Positions 7,656-14,154 of a DNA stretch of 41,333 bases are shown in pieces (the stretch's first letter is position 1; each line of letters starts with the position of its first letter). The stretch spans positions 1 to 41,333 of the IMG/VR virus record IMGVR_UViG_3300010160_000093; one strand, 5' to 3'. The translations under genes and the position numbers were made by a program. Source of the DNA: a virus. Below the pieces are notes generated by a model. The model searched no databases and was not told the origin of the DNA. It saw only the letters and a list, made by a program, of their open reading frames with translations.

Positions 7656-8672
7656 ATGGCGTTACATTTTGTTCATCCTTTTGAAAAGGCGCGAAACAAA
7701 AGAGTTCCGCTAACACCTCAAGAACAAGAACTTGCTCGTACTTTGTATCAATCAATTCAACGAGCGACGGATAAAATCTCAATGAAACAACTTGAGTCCT
7801 TGCTTCGCAATATGAACCCTGAAACTTTGGAGCGTTTGTTAGCGGGCATAACTATTGCTAATCAAAAAAACATTAGAGATTCCCTCCTTAACTCAATTGA
7901 TATTGGTGGTAAAGATGCCATCAAACAAATTCAAAAGATTGCTCCTAAGTTATCCCTTCCAGCCTTTACACCTTCTAAAGTAAAGATAGAAAATAGACCA
8001 GCATTGGCTAACCTTGAGTTCACAAAAATTCCTATATGGGCGCAACCAAAACCACCTAAAGTGGAATTTACTATGTCTTTTAATAAAACAAACCCAAACT
8101 CTTTAGCCTTTGCTCAACGCCGTGCTGGAGAACTTGTAACCTCAATTGATGCGCTAACCCGTCTCTCAGTTCGCAAAGCAATTATTGATGCTTTCAATGA
8201 GGGCTTAGATTACAGAGCAACAGCCCGAAGAATTAAAAGTGTTGTAGGACTACATCCAAGATTTGCTGATGCAGTAACTAACTTTGAAAAAAAAGAATAT
8301 GCCCGATTAGTTAAAAGCGGAATAAAAGAAGAAGCCGCTCGCGCTAAAGCAATCGAACGCTCTACCCGTTATTCAGATTCTCTTAAGAGCAAGAGAGCCA
8401 CAATGATTGCTCGCACAGAGATTCAAATTGCTCAAAACGAGGGACGCCAAGAGGGATGGAACCAAGCGGCAGAGCAAGGTTATGTAGATGTTGAATCACA
8501 AAAGATGTGGGTTATTGCTCAAGACGAACGCACTTGCCCTATTTGTATTGAACTAGATGGCGAGATAGTTCCTTGGGATGGAACATTTTCTAGCGGTGAT
8601 GAAACTCCAGGAAGAGTTCACCCTAATTGCCGTTGCGTCATGGTAATCATTCCACCTGAGAGACGCTCATGA
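7656..8672 (+). CDS. MuF-like minor head protein
   Basis: 338 residues. The C-terminal half is the Phage Mu F domain: SVRKAIIDAFNEGLDYRATARRI, ARTEIQIAQNEGRQEGWNQA, and the Cys/His signature QDERTCPICIELDG ... GRVHPNCRCVMV at residues about 285-330, likely a metal-binding site. The N-terminal half is helical. MuF proteins sit on the portal inside the head in few copies, and in other phages carry fused toxin domains that are ejected with DNA. Here MuF has no fused effector, but the next three large ORFs encode enzyme-like domains, as if the cargo had been split off. ATGA overlap with the next gene supports co-production. Confidence 0.88.
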   Translation: MALHFVHPFEKARNKRVPLTPQEQELARTLYQSIQRATDKISMKQLESLLRNMNPETLERLLAGITIANQKNIRDSLLNSIDIGGKDAIKQIQKIAPKLSLPAFTPSKVKIENRPALANLEFTKIPIWAQPKPPKVEFTMSFNKTNPNSLAFAQRRAGELVTSIDALTRLSVRKAIIDAFNEGLDYRATARRIKSVVGLHPRFADAVTNFEKKEYARLVKSGIKEEAARAKAIERSTRYSDSLKSKRATMIARTEIQIAQNEGRQEGWNQAAEQGYVDVESQKMWVIAQDERTCPICIELDGEIVPWDGTFSSGDETPGRVHPNCRCVMVIIPPERRS

Positions 8673-10417
8673 GTATCACTATCACATTTCCTATTGGATA
8701 TAAGCCAGTTCTAAAACACGGCGACCATGACCAAAGTTCTCATGGCTCATGGGCTACGGGAACAATTAGTGATGTGAAGTCCGAAACTATTCCTACAAGC
8801 GAATTAGGTCGAGGAAAAATTAGTGGAGAAATAATCTCAGCAAAAATAACTGTTCAAAATGAAGGTTTTAACATCTCTCAAATAAATGAAAAATATGATG
8901 ATGGTGTAGCGGTAATGAATTTATCTTTGAAAGATAGTGAAAATAGAAACATTGGTCGTCTATCAGCCTCCAATCAATTTGTGTCAAACAAAGAATACGC
9001 AAAAATAGGTTATGTAGAAGTCCGAACAAACTATCAGCGCAAAGGCATAGCAACTGCAATGCTTAATTTTGCTCGTAAAAATATGATAGATGGAATTGAA
9101 ATCCGCCACGACTGGAATATGTTATCTCCTTCAGGTAAGGCTTGGGCAGATGTAACTAAACATGGTGACCATGACCAATCAAGTCATGGCTCATGGGCGC
9201 ACGGAAATTCTGCTCTACAAGCAGAGTATTCAAGATTAAAAGAAGGCGGAATAATAGAAAGCGGAAAATATATTGCTGAATATGACTCCGTAGTAACATC
9301 ACGCTTTGACCCATCTAAATTTAGTAGACCCTTTGACCCAAGAGCGCTTACCAATGACGCCGCTTCACATTCAGGTCCTCAATTACGAGACATAATTCAA
9401 AGGCTTATAGATAGAAATGAATATACTCCTGAAATGCAAAGTAAAATAGAAGAAATTTCTAAAAAATTTTTAACAGCCGATATGGACAAAGTTCAAACTT
9501 ATTTTGAACTTGAGGCAGGAAAACAAAATTTAGGCGCAACAAATTCTAAAGTTTATGTTGCGGGTCAAACGCAAAGATTATCAAATTATCTTGACGCAAA
9601 TAACGCAGAGGTTAGATATGAAATGGCAAAAGCCATTCATCCTCTTCTTGACGAACTACGAGGTGGTCAATTAGGTAACTATTTAGAAAATCACAAACGA
9701 GTGACAGAAGAAATTAGTAGCAATGTTTCTAAAGGATTTCCAGTTATAGCCATTGATTCAAGGGACTTTGAAAAAGTATTAAAGGATGGTAGGTTTAAGT
9801 CACAATTTGAGTCAAATAAAAGTGGGGGAATGTACGATAGAAGCAAAAGAAAACTTGAAGAAGTGGAACAAGGAATTCCCGTGAATAGTAAATTAAGTGA
9901 TAGACCAATTTACGGATACCTTGCAAGCCAATTATCTGTTGATGAAAATTCTGCAAGAGATGTAAATAATGAAAAACCTACTAATACATTTACCGTAAAC
10001 ACAAGTCGGGTAGAACAATATGGCGATTTAAGGGTATTGTTAAATGATGATGTAAAAGAAAGAACAACATATACTTTAAGAGATTCTTTACATACAGGCT
10101 CACTTCCACAACCCTTGTCCGAGAAAGTGACTAGAGATAATCTTGTAACTGCGGGTCTACATGCAAGGAGTTCTTGGGGAAGTAGTGGTAAACACACAAG
10201 TGAGTACGCCGAAGTACAAATTAGAAATGGTGTAAAAGTCTCAGATATTAAACAAATTTATATTGTTGGTTCTCAAAGTAGTGACTCACAAGATAGAGAG
10301 CGTCGGGTGAGTGAGGTCAAAAATATGTTGAATGCTTCAGGTAATAAAAATTTAATAAACAAAGTAGAATTTTTACCAGCGGAAAAAGACAAATATCGAG
10401 ACGATTGGTCAGATTAA
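8669..10417 (+). CDS. Two-tag putative cargo: GNAT-like domain plus DUF3626-like domain
   Basis: 582 residues. Order: tag 1 (residues 16-31, after KPVL); a GNAT acetyltransferase-like domain at about 40-160 (EYAKIGYVEVRTNYQRKG and IATAMLNFARK match the acetyl-CoA loop R/Q-x-x-G-x-A region); tag 2 (164-179); a helical region; and a C-terminal domain at about 365-575 with KDGRFKSQFES, SKLSDRPIYGYLA, VEQYGDLRVLLNDDVKERTTYTLRDSL and YAEVQIRNGVKVSDIKQIYI. That last domain resembles DUF3626-type proteins of phages and toxins; a link to ADP-ribosyltransferases is possible but uncertain. ATGA coupling to MuF suggests a virion protein. GNAT enzymes acetylate amines; the target here is unknown. Confidence 0.7.
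   Translation: MSITITFPIGYKPVLKHGDHDQSSHGSWATGTISDVKSETIPTSELGRGKISGEIISAKITVQNEGFNISQINEKYDDGVAVMNLSLKDSENRNIGRLSASNQFVSNKEYAKIGYVEVRTNYQRKGIATAMLNFARKNMIDGIEIRHDWNMLSPSGKAWADVTKHGDHDQSSHGSWAHGNSALQAEYSRLKEGGIIESGKYIAEYDSVVTSRFDPSKFSRPFDPRALTNDAASHSGPQLRDIIQRLIDRNEYTPEMQSKIEEISKKFLTADMDKVQTYFELEAGKQNLGATNSKVYVAGQTQRLSNYLDANNAEVRYEMAKAIHPLLDELRGGQLGNYLENHKRVTEEISSNVSKGFPVIAIDSRDFEKVLKDGRFKSQFESNKSGGMYDRSKRKLEEVEQGIPVNSKLSDRPIYGYLASQLSVDENSARDVNNEKPTNTFTVNTSRVEQYGDLRVLLNDDVKERTTYTLRDSLHTGSLPQPLSEKVTRDNLVTAGLHARSSWGSSGKHTSEYAEVQIRNGVKVSDIKQIYIVGSQSSDSQDRERRVSEVKNMLNASGNKNLINKVEFLPAEKDKYRDDWSD
8714..8761 (+). repeat. KHGDHDQSSHGSWA tag, copy 1
   Basis: Codes for KHGDHDQSSHGSWATG at residues 16-31 of the 8669 ORF, right after KPVL. 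The DNA shares a 38-base identical core with copy 3 (10616), which points to recent duplication or recombination. Confidence 0.85.
9158..9205 (+). repeat. KHGDHDQSSHGSWA tag, copy 2
   Basis: Codes for KHGDHDQSSHGSWAHG at residues 164-179 of the same ORF, exactly between the GNAT-like domain and the second half. The codons differ synonymously from copy 1, so the protein sequence is what is kept. Confidence 0.85.
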
Positions 10418-12436
10418 ATGAACAATACATTAAATATAGAAAAAGGTACTGTTCTATACAAACGCTCAGATGGTAGCGAAATTTTATTCACAAGAACAAA
10501 TGATGAAGATTTTTACGCTTCTGTCCGTAATCCAAATGGAAAAGTTTTTGAAGAACAATTACTTGGGTCAATACTTCGTAGAGGCGATTGGGAAGCAACC
10601 TATGAAATTGTAGAAAAGCACGGCGACCATGACCAAAGTTCTCATGGCTCATGGGCGCAGGGAGTCCAAGTAGCCCCTGAGATTGTCCGCTCGACGCTTG
10701 AGAGGGTCAAAGAGAATGGCGGTCTCTCAGTCAGCCTCAAGGACGGTTCTGAGCCTACTAAGGGCTTTATGGTTGCCAAAGGCAAGAAGTTTGCGGCGAT
10801 AGTCAAGGCTGATGACTTTTTTGATGAGGCTAAAGGCGCTGAGATTCTTTCTTCCTACATGAAGCAACATAAATCAGAGTTCAATAATTCGAATAACTAC
10901 CTAGGGTTATGGCATAATACGAACGATGGACAGGTCTACCTTGATGTATCAGAAAACATTAAGGACGAGGGAGAGGCTATCTCTCGGGGTCGTGAAAGAG
11001 ACCAAATCTCAATTTGGGATGTAGCAAACTTCAAAGAAATAGAAACAGGAGGAACAGGTGGCATCGAAAAAACTCGAAGCGGTACAACTGCCCGATATGT
11101 CGAACATGACAGACGAACAGATAGACGCTTACGCCAAAGAGATTTGGGCAAAGTTAGCAAAACCCTCAAAGTAATTTATTTTGATTATGGGTTAAAACCC
11201 GTACTAAAACACGGTGAGCATGACCAGTCCGAACACGGTAACTGGGCTAGAGGTTATACGGCTGATGAAGTTGCTCGTATTGAATCAATGGCTACTGTTG
11301 GACCGTCGGCTAAAGATATTTTACAAGCCATCAAACCAAAAACATATAGCGATAATCAATTAAGTGAGTATGTGGAACAAGACGGCGATTTGTATGCAGA
11401 TGCAACCCAAGGTATTGATGGCAAAGTTGCCGAAAGTCTTGCATCGCTTCAAGCAGAATTTCCAAACCGTGAATATACCGAACAAGAAAAAAATGATATT
11501 TTTGAAAGAGTACAAAGTGAAATGATTGAAAATTATGTTGATGGTCAAAGAGAATCATTAACAGAATACGCTATGGCTGTTGAGGGTTATGAGCCAATAA
11601 ACACCGACGATTTAGTTGGACCTCTTAATGATGTATTTGTAGTTAGTCAAACAGGGACAAGTTTAACTGGAGATACGGTTACCTTAGAGTCAAGAATTGA
11701 AAATGTATACAAGGATGGAAATGAATTAAGAGTGCAAGGCTCAATTTACAATGGAGAGGGTGAACAAGTTGGAGAAATATCTCGCACATTTTTTGAAAAA
11801 AACGGCACACTCAATGTTGAGCATGGACTTTTATGGATTTATGAGGAAGAAAATAAAGGGACTGGTTTTGGCAAAGAATTTATTCAACAGACTGAGGCTT
11901 GGTATACAGCAAAAGGTTTAGGTTACATTGAAATAAAATCAACCGCTCAGGATGGCGCTCGACATTGGGCTAGAGCAGGTTATGATTTTGCGCCAAATAA
12001 AGTAGGAGAAAATCTTGACACAATTTCCCAAAGGGTTGCTTCTATGGACGATGAAGAAAGTGGTTGGTTCGCAAAAGGTTCTGCCGAACGAGCAGAATTT
12101 GATTCTTTAATGTCAAGAGCAACAAATGATTATTCTCCATATTTTGAAGATGAGAGTGGATATAAATACCCTGCTTTTGGCTCAGTCAAAAATTTCACAG
12201 ACGAAGATTTTCCATTACCTGCTCATTTTGCAAACATTGGATATTCAAAAAAAATAGAAGAAGAAACTGGAACTTGGGCTGGTAAAGAATTGATGTATAA
12301 CCTCAAAGTAAGTTATGTTAAATCTTTGACTGCTGAGGGTCAGAAACTTCTTGAAGGTCCTATTGACCACGATGGAGATGGTGTAATTTACGATGGGACA
12401 GCCCGTGAAAAACCAGCGCCTAGCAAAAAGAACTAA
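10418..12436 (+). CDS. Two-tag putative cargo, probable fusion of two genes
   Basis: 672 residues as one open frame. Residues 67-82: tag copy 3. Residues about 84-215: a domain with NYLGLWHNTNDGQVYLDVSE and RDQISIWDVANFKEIETGG, known to me from actinophage head regions (LPD-like). Residues 264-279: tag copy 4, preceded by YGLKPVL as in the 8669 ORF start. Residues about 400-530: a GNAT-like domain (WIYEEENKGTGFGKEFI, HWARAGYDF). The end is DHDGDGVIYDGT, an EF-hand-like loop. Between 11067 and 11174 the frame is Arg-rich and unlike its neighbours, while the +1 frame reads a natural-looking C terminus, so this may be two genes (10418-11174 and about 11174-12436). The start has no Shine-Dalgarno and follows the previous stop directly. 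Confidence 0.65.
   Translation: MNNTLNIEKGTVLYKRSDGSEILFTRTNDEDFYASVRNPNGKVFEEQLLGSILRRGDWEATYEIVEKHGDHDQSSHGSWAQGVQVAPEIVRSTLERVKENGGLSVSLKDGSEPTKGFMVAKGKKFAAIVKADDFFDEAKGAEILSSYMKQHKSEFNNSNNYLGLWHNTNDGQVYLDVSENIKDEGEAISRGRERDQISIWDVANFKEIETGGTGGIEKTRSGTTARYVEHDRRTDRRLRQRDLGKVSKTLKVIYFDYGLKPVLKHGEHDQSEHGNWARGYTADEVARIESMATVGPSAKDILQAIKPKTYSDNQLSEYVEQDGDLYADATQGIDGKVAESLASLQAEFPNREYTEQEKNDIFERVQSEMIENYVDGQRESLTEYAMAVEGYEPINTDDLVGPLNDVFVVSQTGTSLTGDTVTLESRIENVYKDGNELRVQGSIYNGEGEQVGEISRTFFEKNGTLNVEHGLLWIYEEENKGTGFGKEFIQQTEAWYTAKGLGYIEIKSTAQDGARHWARAGYDFAPNKVGENLDTISQRVASMDDEESGWFAKGSAERAEFDSLMSRATNDYSPYFEDESGYKYPAFGSVKNFTDEDFPLPAHFANIGYSKKIEEETGTWAGKELMYNLKVSYVKSLTAEGQKLLEGPIDHDGDGVIYDGTAREKPAPSKKN
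10616..10663 (+). repeat. KHGDHDQSSHGSWA tag, copy 3
   Basis: Codes for KHGDHDQSSHGSWAQG at residues 67-82 of the 10418 ORF, between a small N-terminal domain and the LPD-like domain. Confidence 0.85.
11067..11176 (+). other. Frame anomaly: A6 run and TAATT junction
   Basis: At A6 (11067-11072) a +1 shift, or one A fewer, would continue the upstream domain as 33 residues including MTDEQIDAYAKEIWAKLA and stop at TAA 11172-11174. That TAA overlaps ATT 11174-11176, where the second tag domain could start, like the TAATG junctions elsewhere. The zero frame instead reads through as an Arg-rich linker. Either a fused gene created by a one-base change, or programmed frameshifting, or a homopolymer sequence error. 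Confidence 0.5.
11207..11254 (+). repeat. KHGEHDQSEHGNWA tag, copy 4
   Basis: Codes for KHGEHDQSEHGNWARG, a variant with E, E and N substitutions, at residues 264-279 of the 10418 ORF. It is preceded by KPVL as in copy 1, which suggests a former N terminus. Confidence 0.8.
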
Positions 12437-12455: not shown

Positions 12456-12611
12456 ATGAATAGACGAGAGAAACAAAAGGCTATCCAAGAGGCTTATTCC
12501 AAGTGGTCTGAAAAGGTTGAGTTCACTTCTGAGACTGGTGCTTCAAATGAGGATGAGTCAAAGATTATGGAAGAAATTTCAACCATACTTCAAGGAAATA
12601 AACCCCAGTAA
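12456..12611 (+). CDS. Small leaderless protein, unknown
   Basis: 51 residues: a basic start (MNRREKQKAIQEAYSKW), acidic middle (TSETGASNEDESK) and a final helix. Predicted leaderless start. It separates the two large cargo ORFs and has its own promoter, so it may be an independent regulator, or an immunity or chaperone partner for the RelA/SpoT-like protein next to it. That pairing is inference from position only. AACCCCAGT overlaps its stop codon. Confidence 0.55.
   Translation: MNRREKQKAIQEAYSKWSEKVEFTSETGASNEDESKIMEEISTILQGNKPQ
12601..12609 (+). promoter_or_regulatory. AACCCCAGT box
   Basis: Exact copy of the nonamer found at 3065 and 28583. Here it overlaps the stop of the 12456 gene and lies 15 bases upstream of the -10 box of the 12637 gene, close to where a -35 element or an activator/repressor site would be. 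Confidence 0.45.
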
Positions 12612-12624
12612 TAATACCATCCGC

Positions 12625-12636: not shown

Positions 12637-14154
12637 ATGGCGGATATTGCACCCAAACTAATTCATCTAAGCGCTGAGGAACTACTCGCGCTCCACACGA
12701 ATGTCCATAAATCAGCGTCTCCCTCCTCGGCTGAAATCGAGGTTCATCACACCATTCTTAATGAGATGGCTAGACGCAAGATGGAACGCCCAAAGGATGA
12801 TTGGGATAATTACGAGATTCTAATTGATTCAATCGATGATGTAGACCTAACCTCAATTGCTGGATTGCCAGCCGAGACAGTCCTAGATGTAATCAAATCA
12901 ACGGGCGATACCGTGGGTAACATCAAAACTTTCTTTACTGTCAATGGTTATCAAATGCGAATTGAGCAAGTTGCAAAAGCCGAGGATAGTTTTACTCCTC
13001 CTCAATCAGTAAGAGATGCGGCGCAACGAGCAATTGAATGGATTGATAAAGGTTTTGCTGGCGGTGGATTTACTTCAGTCGGTAGAACTAGAGCGGGTCA
13101 ATTAGCCCGTGGTGAAAGTGTTTCTATCGAAACCTTGAAACGAATGAAATCTTTTCTTTCTCGACATAAAGTTGATGGACAAGCCCTCGGATTTAATCGT
13201 GGTGAAAAAGGATTCCCTAGCGCTGGTCGAGTGTCATGGGACGCTTGGGGCGGAGATGCTGGATTCGCTTGGGCAGAATCAATGGTGGAAAAATATGAAA
13301 ACGAAGTTAAAAAACACGGAGATGGTGACCAATCCGCACATGGAAGTTGGGCTACTGGAACTAGCGGTGGAGAAGATAAGGGTTCGACTGGTCGCCCCGC
13401 TATGGCACCTGATATTGCTCCCAAACAAGGACAATCTAAAGAAGCCATTAGAGAAGCCCAAAGATTAAGAAAAGATGCCGAGGCAGTCGAGCCAGTTATT
13501 ACTGGATTGATGGAAGGTATTGCAAAAACAATCGGCGCTGATTTTCCTGAAATCGATGGCAAGAGTTCGCTTACAGAAAGATTAAAGTCCACAGATTCAC
13601 TCGCTCGCAAAATTGATGCCGATGCAGAGAAAGACCATCGCGGCGATAGAGAGAAAGCGGCAAACGCAATCTCTGATGCGGTTCGTTATACACTCAATGT
13701 TGATGATAATAATTATGCAGACGGTGTTGAAAAAACAATCAACGCGGTAGAACAAACTGGTTGGAAAGTTGAATCGGTTAAAAACTTTTGGCAAGCAGGT
13801 GACCCTTACGATGGCACTAATATCAAGTTGAGTAAAGATGGCGTCAAGGTAGAACTACAACTTCATACTCCAACCTCTCACAAAGTCAAAGAAGTAGATT
13901 TACACGATGACTACGAGGTGTATCGAAAATCTACAAATAACACAGAGCGCCAAGCAATGTGGGACAGAATGGTAGACAAGGCTAAAGCAATCCCTAGACC
14001 AGCAAACATGGCAAAACTGCTGACCATCGGAACGCTTGTAACGCAGACTTTTGAGACCGCTCAACAAGCAGGTTTGGTAAAATCAACGGGGGTTGATATA
14101 ATGTGGAGAATAACGAGAGGAGGTACAGCCGTATGCGATATTTTGCAAAACTAG
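12637..14154 (+). CDS. Putative cargo with divergent RelA/SpoT-like synthetase domain
   Basis: 505 residues. Residues about 126-222 hold a conserved phage head-region domain (SVRDAAQRAIEWIDKGFAGG, RMKSFLSRH, AWGGDAGFAWAESMV). Tag copy 5 is at 226-241. Residues about 300-440 look like a RelA/SpoT nucleotide synthetase fold: SLTERLKSTDSLARKI (ATP site region), AISDAVRYT in place of I-x-D-x-x-G-x-R, GDPYDGTNIKL, and KVELQLHTPTSHKVKE, the counterpart of E-x-Q-x-R-T. Such domains make (p)ppGpp or (p)ppApp; related toxins deplete ATP. The divergent motifs leave the activity open. It overlaps the protease gene by 22 bases. It is probably an internal virion effector or an infection-timed alarmone enzyme. 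Confidence 0.72.
   Translation: MADIAPKLIHLSAEELLALHTNVHKSASPSSAEIEVHHTILNEMARRKMERPKDDWDNYEILIDSIDDVDLTSIAGLPAETVLDVIKSTGDTVGNIKTFFTVNGYQMRIEQVAKAEDSFTPPQSVRDAAQRAIEWIDKGFAGGGFTSVGRTRAGQLARGESVSIETLKRMKSFLSRHKVDGQALGFNRGEKGFPSAGRVSWDAWGGDAGFAWAESMVEKYENEVKKHGDGDQSAHGSWATGTSGGEDKGSTGRPAMAPDIAPKQGQSKEAIREAQRLRKDAEAVEPVITGLMEGIAKTIGADFPEIDGKSSLTERLKSTDSLARKIDADAEKDHRGDREKAANAISDAVRYTLNVDDNNYADGVEKTINAVEQTGWKVESVKNFWQAGDPYDGTNIKLSKDGVKVELQLHTPTSHKVKEVDLHDDYEVYRKSTNNTERQAMWDRMVDKAKAIPRPANMAKLLTIGTLVTQTFETAQQAGLVKSTGVDIMWRITRGGTAVCDILQN
13312..13359 (+). repeat. KHGDGDQSAHGSWA tag, copy 5
   Basis: Codes for KHGDGDQSAHGSWATG at residues 226-241 of the 12637 ORF, exactly between its N-terminal phage domain and the RelA/SpoT-like half. 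Confidence 0.85.
14097..14102 (+). promoter_or_regulatory. Internal promoter before the protease gene
   Basis: Consensus TATAAT preceded by CGGGGGTTGA lies inside the end of the cargo ORF. A transcript starting near 14109 would carry GAGAGGAGG (14115-14123) and ATG 14133. It would give the protease and scaffold genes a supply independent of the cargo promoter. Confidence 0.45.

Follow-up and report, generated by a model that had tools for sequence, protein, structure and literature searches.

Sequence comparison points to a conserved small gene nested in the linker of a tagged two-module phage protein

Characterization of the 672-codon ORF

The window analyzed here is a 41,333-nt stretch of virus DNA (positions 1 to 41,333 of IMG/VR record IMGVR_UViG_3300010160_000093). 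It contains an ORF of 672 codons, referred to below as the host ORF, in the neighbourhood of portal and MuF genes. The host ORF carries two tagged modules, N and C, as the first-pass annotation had recognized, and a short ORF that we call S lies out of frame between them. The features are listed below, with the evidence in brackets where it is specific to a feature.

10418-12436, + strand: host ORF of 672 codons, comprising leader, tag, N domain, linker (overprinted by S), tag and C module
10615-10663, + strand: HDQSSHG tag ahead of the N domain
10664-11062, + strand: N domain, ~130 aa, zero frame, with the C-terminal end ..IWDVANFKEIETGGTG (dN/dS, AlphaFold2)
11047-11052, + strand: AGGAGG, predicted ribosome-binding site of S, inside Thr-Gly-Gly codons of N (codon usage, duplex energy)
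11058-11174, + strand: S, small gene of 38 codons nested in the +1 frame, from a GTG start to a TAA stop (dN/dS, homologues)
11063-11173, + strand: Arg-rich zero-frame linker GGIEKTRSGTTARYVEHDRRTDRRLRQRDLGKVSKTLKV, overprinted on S (open in nearly all homologues; sequence unconstrained)
11206-11254, + strand: HDQSEHG tag ahead of the C module
11174-12433, + strand: C module, zero frame, with a probable GNAT acetyltransferase fold inside (dN/dS, Foldseek)

The tag (HDQSxHG) is encoded by a repeat of ~49 nt with copies at 8713, 9157, 10615, 11206, 13311 and 15303, and these six copies sit in consecutive ORFs behind the portal and MuF genes. A likeness noticed earlier between YGLKPVL plus the tag that follows it and the protein starting at 8669 is real, with repeat copies at 8713 and 11206. 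It is possible that the tag serves in virion loading or processing; a literature search for the HDQSTH motif returned nothing. The ORF at 8669-10417 has two tags, and the part separating them resembles a GNAT acetyltransferase weakly, below the Pfam cut-off; the tagged ORF at 12637-14154 has a RelA/SpoT-like look in its C-terminal part and matches phrog_2859 and phrog_7625 (head morphogenesis). A short ORF of about 50 codons (12457-12612) lies between the latter and the host ORF.

AlphaFold2 modelling of the full host ORF gave folded N and C modules, with residues 215-274 at a pLDDT of about 32, and the Arg-rich linker between the modules is predicted to be disordered; low confidence is expected here if the linker needs only an open frame. 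The N model has a pLDDT of 90.5 and a pTM of 0.81, and no close PDB match to it was found by sequence or fold search (best Foldseek E 0.28, best VIA Z 4.3). Other phage proteins share the N fold, and some of these are standalone. For the C module the top Foldseek matches are acetyltransferases, at a probability of about 1.0 but an E value of only 4e-3. No canonical zero-frame start codon precedes the tag of the C module, and the first one after S is the ATG at 11288, behind the tag, so a tagged C module depends on read-through from N.

At the junction of the two modules, several observations of the first-pass annotation were borne out. There is an A6 run at 11067-11072 with an Arg-rich zero frame downstream of it, the +1 frame encodes MTDEQIDAYAKEIWAKLA, and the +1-frame TAA at 11172-11174 overlaps a zero-frame ATT at 11174-11176. 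The +1 frame is open from 11043 and its first start codon is the GTG at 11058, which has the AGGAGG 5 nt ahead of it (duplex energy −10.3 kcal/mol). Translation from this GTG to the TAA would give the 38-residue protein (M)ASKKLEAVQLPDMSNMTDEQIDAYAKEIWAKLAKPSK, which contains the peptide LEAVQLPDMSNMTDEQIDAYAK and is encoded on the same strand as the ORF at 10418-12436. The A6 run falls inside S, downstream of its start, and no frameshift is therefore needed to read the +1 segment.

Distribution of S and arrangement of the frames

A scan of IMG/VR with the host ORF gave 79 loci, and scans with S and N-domain profiles extended this to distant phages. In all, 76 distinct S genes encoding 53 distinct S proteins were collected from phage relatives; since these relatives share ancestry, the counts given here are not independent trials. 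The frame arrangement of the host ORF is common to nearly all homologues: N and C share one frame, with S in +1, in nearly all of those among the 79 loci that span the junction. The arrangement recurs across dozens of independent contigs in which protein identity falls as low as ~40-50%, and S identity reaches 97-100% even where that of the C module is down to 38%.

The first-pass annotation had proposed a recent fusion in this phage, in which a one-base indel joined two separate tagged genes and the second gene lost its ATG. The zero-frame linker is indeed unlike its surroundings, and other phages of the group do have separate tag genes around S (loci L185 and L191). However, the N and C modules are in the same frame with S in +1 in 48 distinct junction sequences listed (60-odd loci), and the same arrangement in dozens of contigs led us to rule out a recent fusion or a sequencing error at this position. 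In addition, the stop of S reads TAATT or TAATC and never TAATG among relatives with the same C module, indicating that no ATG was recently lost, and the +1 frame is under strong purifying selection (see below). We consider a recent fusion extremely unlikely. The earlier annotation had also named homologues with the Arg-rich linker conserved in the zero frame as what would refute its proposal; the frame is indeed open in all 48 junctions listed, which counts against the proposal, although the sequence of the linker is not conserved. Overall that annotation is partly supported, its observation being real and its explanation wrong in part.

Every S match examined adjoins the 3′ end of an N domain directly, and the N-S unit precedes differing modules, including C, RelA/SpoT-like and others. 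A single S copy is carried by 17 of 18 long contigs; the remaining one (IMGVR_UViG_3300027971_000047, 70.6 kb) carries two, each nested behind an N domain. These two N-S loci (L065 and L219) are of different types and lie ~59 kb apart, and may reflect either two joined phage genomes or a true paralogue. No N domain was found in the plasmid collection, and the genome contigs yielded only two distant N relatives, with no S-like sequence behind either. The N-domain tree is star-like and does not settle the order of fused and unfused forms.

Some relatives depart from the common layout at the N-S junction. Translation of N would end 8 nt inside S in L133 (ATGTCTGA) and after about 23 codons of S in L185, L188, L191 and L199, which shows that S is a gene of its own. 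The next tagged gene in the L185 group begins at an ATG that is also inside S, in the third frame; three frames are all in use at L185 2877-2996 and L191 1548-1676, and this next gene bears a different type of tag (NPxxDxxGRF). In L042, L061 and L071, where S has diverged, the zero frame instead continues across it and leads first into an extra tagged module and from there into C. This module (..DYFGHAATGRGFGQDGEEAAWVHHSQMF..) is in frame between N/S and C at L042 2731-5496, L061 4186-7149 and L071 1543-4167.

Start site of S

Start codons of S are GTG in 62 and ATG in 14 of the 76 distinct S genes, and a recognizable ribosome-binding site is present in 74 of the 76. These tallies follow a single collection rule that required a start codon, and the presence of a start codon in 76/76 is thus partly by construction; among the N-motif sites examined, only L216 was without an S ORF. 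Pairing with the 16S tail has a mean duplex energy of −9.9 kcal/mol ahead of the S starts, compared to −2.9 kcal/mol at control positions in N. Codon usage in N is consistent with this, as GGA makes up 15% of the Gly codons elsewhere in N but is used in 58/64 and 53/64 sequences at the two positions of the binding site. In some phages the S start is 9 nt further upstream. There the Gly codons of the usual site read GGT GGC, with the GTG inside them, and the binding site is instead a GGAG upstream. Internal initiation, unlike a frameshift, would lead one to expect a binding site that moves with the start codon.

A programmed +1 frameshift near the end of N would give an N-S fusion beside the zero-frame N-linker-C protein, with AGGAGG as a stimulator, as in prfB. 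The Shine-Dalgarno-like sequence just upstream of the frame junction fits such a mechanism, but neither a conserved slippery heptamer nor a slow or stop codon was found at the junction sequences. The A6 run, at which the first-pass annotation had placed a possible shift, is not conserved either, as the longest A run is only 2-4 nt in 18 of the 76 distinct S genes (range 2 to 7 nt). What is conserved is a start codon, which changes from GTG to ATG and moves together with the binding site (offsets −11, −2 and +1 relative to the TGGTG motif). The early stop of the N frame in L133, just past the S start, also means that S there cannot be a product of the zero frame. Based on these observations we regard a frameshift as very unlikely.

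Selection in the two frames

To compare constraint between frames, Nei-Gojobori counts were made over 61 distinct homologous sequences, using the first 150 codons of the C module. The dN/dS values for frames 0, +1 and +2, respectively, were as follows.

N domain: 0.16, 1.58 and 1.60
S stretch: 1.94, 0.21 and 1.31
Start of C: 0.29, 1.18 and 1.24

The constrained frame therefore switches from 0 to +1 and back to 0 exactly at the borders of S, and a divergent subset gave the same pattern (N 0.17, S 0.23 in +1, C 0.29). The hidden +1 coding segment suspected in the first-pass annotation is in this respect upheld far beyond chance. Pairwise differences within the S stretch were 0.224, 0.115 and 0.064 at zero-frame positions 1, 2 and 3, with the peak at position 1 corresponding to position 3 of the S codons, while in N and C the differences peak at position 3 of the zero frame.

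The zero frame through S was open in 17 of 19 representatives (<80% DNA identity); the two exceptions are L133 and the L185 group. When each S was re-coded synonymously with natural codon usage and the openness of the zero frame was scored, the probability of an open frame was ~0-19% per sequence (0.1-19% for the 17 open ones). This per-representative test replaced a count of T at risky third positions (0/762), which was partly circular because the sequences had been grouped by openness. Judged from these comparisons, the zero frame through S is selected for openness only and not for its amino-acid sequence, and this is a clean natural example of DNA that meets two selective demands at once, an amino-acid sequence in one frame and the mere absence of stops in the other. 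The lack of a canonical start ahead of the tag of the C module would explain why the linker is kept free of stops.

ATT and ATC can serve as rare start codons, and this bears on a further explanation that accepts S as coding but denies that the zero frame yields one long product: N would end by drop-off and C would start internally, for example at the ATT at 11174. Such starts and the unconstrained amino acids of the linker (dN/dS of 1.94, above) would suit this explanation. Against it, zero-frame stops are avoided through S far beyond chance, and the extra tagged module in frame between N and C in L042, L061 and L071 makes sense only with read-through. We regard this explanation as very unlikely.

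The junction between N and C is best explained as a conserved nested overlapping gene pair, to which we assign a probability of about 0.88. S is an ORF within an ORF, with its own start and binding site and with purifying selection on the inner frame, and the host frame is in use. Taken together, the comparisons show S to be a coding gene with its own start and binding site, inside a host frame that is selected to stay open. Ribosomes entering at 10418 would read the zero frame unshifted and produce a 672-residue protein consisting of tag-N, a flexible linker of ~50 residues and tag-C. The separate 38-residue S protein would come from the same bases in +1, through another initiation event within the final N codons, at AGGAGG-5 nt-GTG. 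S is the constrained message of the overlap, and the zero-frame linker is kept stop-free only so that the C module stays attached. Both proteins are probably produced during infection.

Predicted role of S

S has a consensus of roughly M-x-x-K-K-L-E-x-V-x-L-P-D-(I/L/M)-S-x-M-T-D-E-x-I-(D/E)-x-Y-A-x-x-(I/L)-W-x-K-L. No Pfam family scored above cut-off for S or N, S matched one PHROG family of unknown function weakly, and no named family for S was found in the libraries searched. Standard gene callers tend to leave out short, fully nested genes such as S, which may account for its absence from named families. S is nonetheless widespread in this group of environmental phages.

Because S was not found here without an N domain and is always at the 3′ end of N, it probably acts with the N domain. 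Most likely S serves tagged N as a small partner, chaperone or antidote within the producing cell, because S is untagged and the tagged proteins, whose genes adjoin those for portal and MuF, look like virion-carried effectors. A more specific proposal, that S is the antidote or loading chaperone of a virion-carried effector and is written into the linker of the effector polyprotein, is possible but doubtful. In all S matches examined, a small untagged ORF is tied to the 3′ end of a candidate effector domain, as would be seen for an effector and its immunity protein. In a Rhodococcus phage, a standalone N ends in ATGGTGK-stop and no S follows, and in Fusobacterium phage phiKSUM the small gene after the standalone N cannot be recognized as S; N domains lacking a recognizable S weaken the case for an obligatory antidote. 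If the proposal is true, effector and antidote would be inseparable by recombination and translated from the same message, and only the tagged effector would be packaged. S also offers a testable handle on N, a widespread and uncharacterized phage domain, and the case warns that a hidden gene can show itself as an odd arginine-rich linker in a phage polyprotein.

Comparison with known systems

Nested genes on the same strand are known from other phages, such as Rz1 inside Rz in lambda and E inside D in phiX174. S resembles these in being a complete small ORF, with its own predicted ribosome-binding site, out of frame within a longer frame of the same strand. It differs in that the host stretch here is only the predicted disordered linker of a two-module polyprotein, and it is the small frame that is conserved.

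For MuF polymorphic toxins, a small downstream ORF has been proposed to encode an immunity protein (PMC5576092). Both that system and this one have multi-domain proteins encoded beside portal and MuF genes, with a short ORF lacking known domains after them. However, S is shorter, is nested and not downstream, and is tied to the N domain; N and C are not fused to a MuF domain, and toxin and immunity roles for N and S are only putative.

Phage polyvalent proteins are single polypeptides, encoded among virion genes and thought to be injected, that combine several effector-like domains, GNATs among them (PMC5512222); a word search of the main text of that paper found no mention of overlapping genes. 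The host ORF is similar in joining several effector-like domains, including a probable GNAT, in one polypeptide encoded among virion genes. It is set apart by the HDQSxHG tag on each module and by the small gene that appears to be written into its linker.
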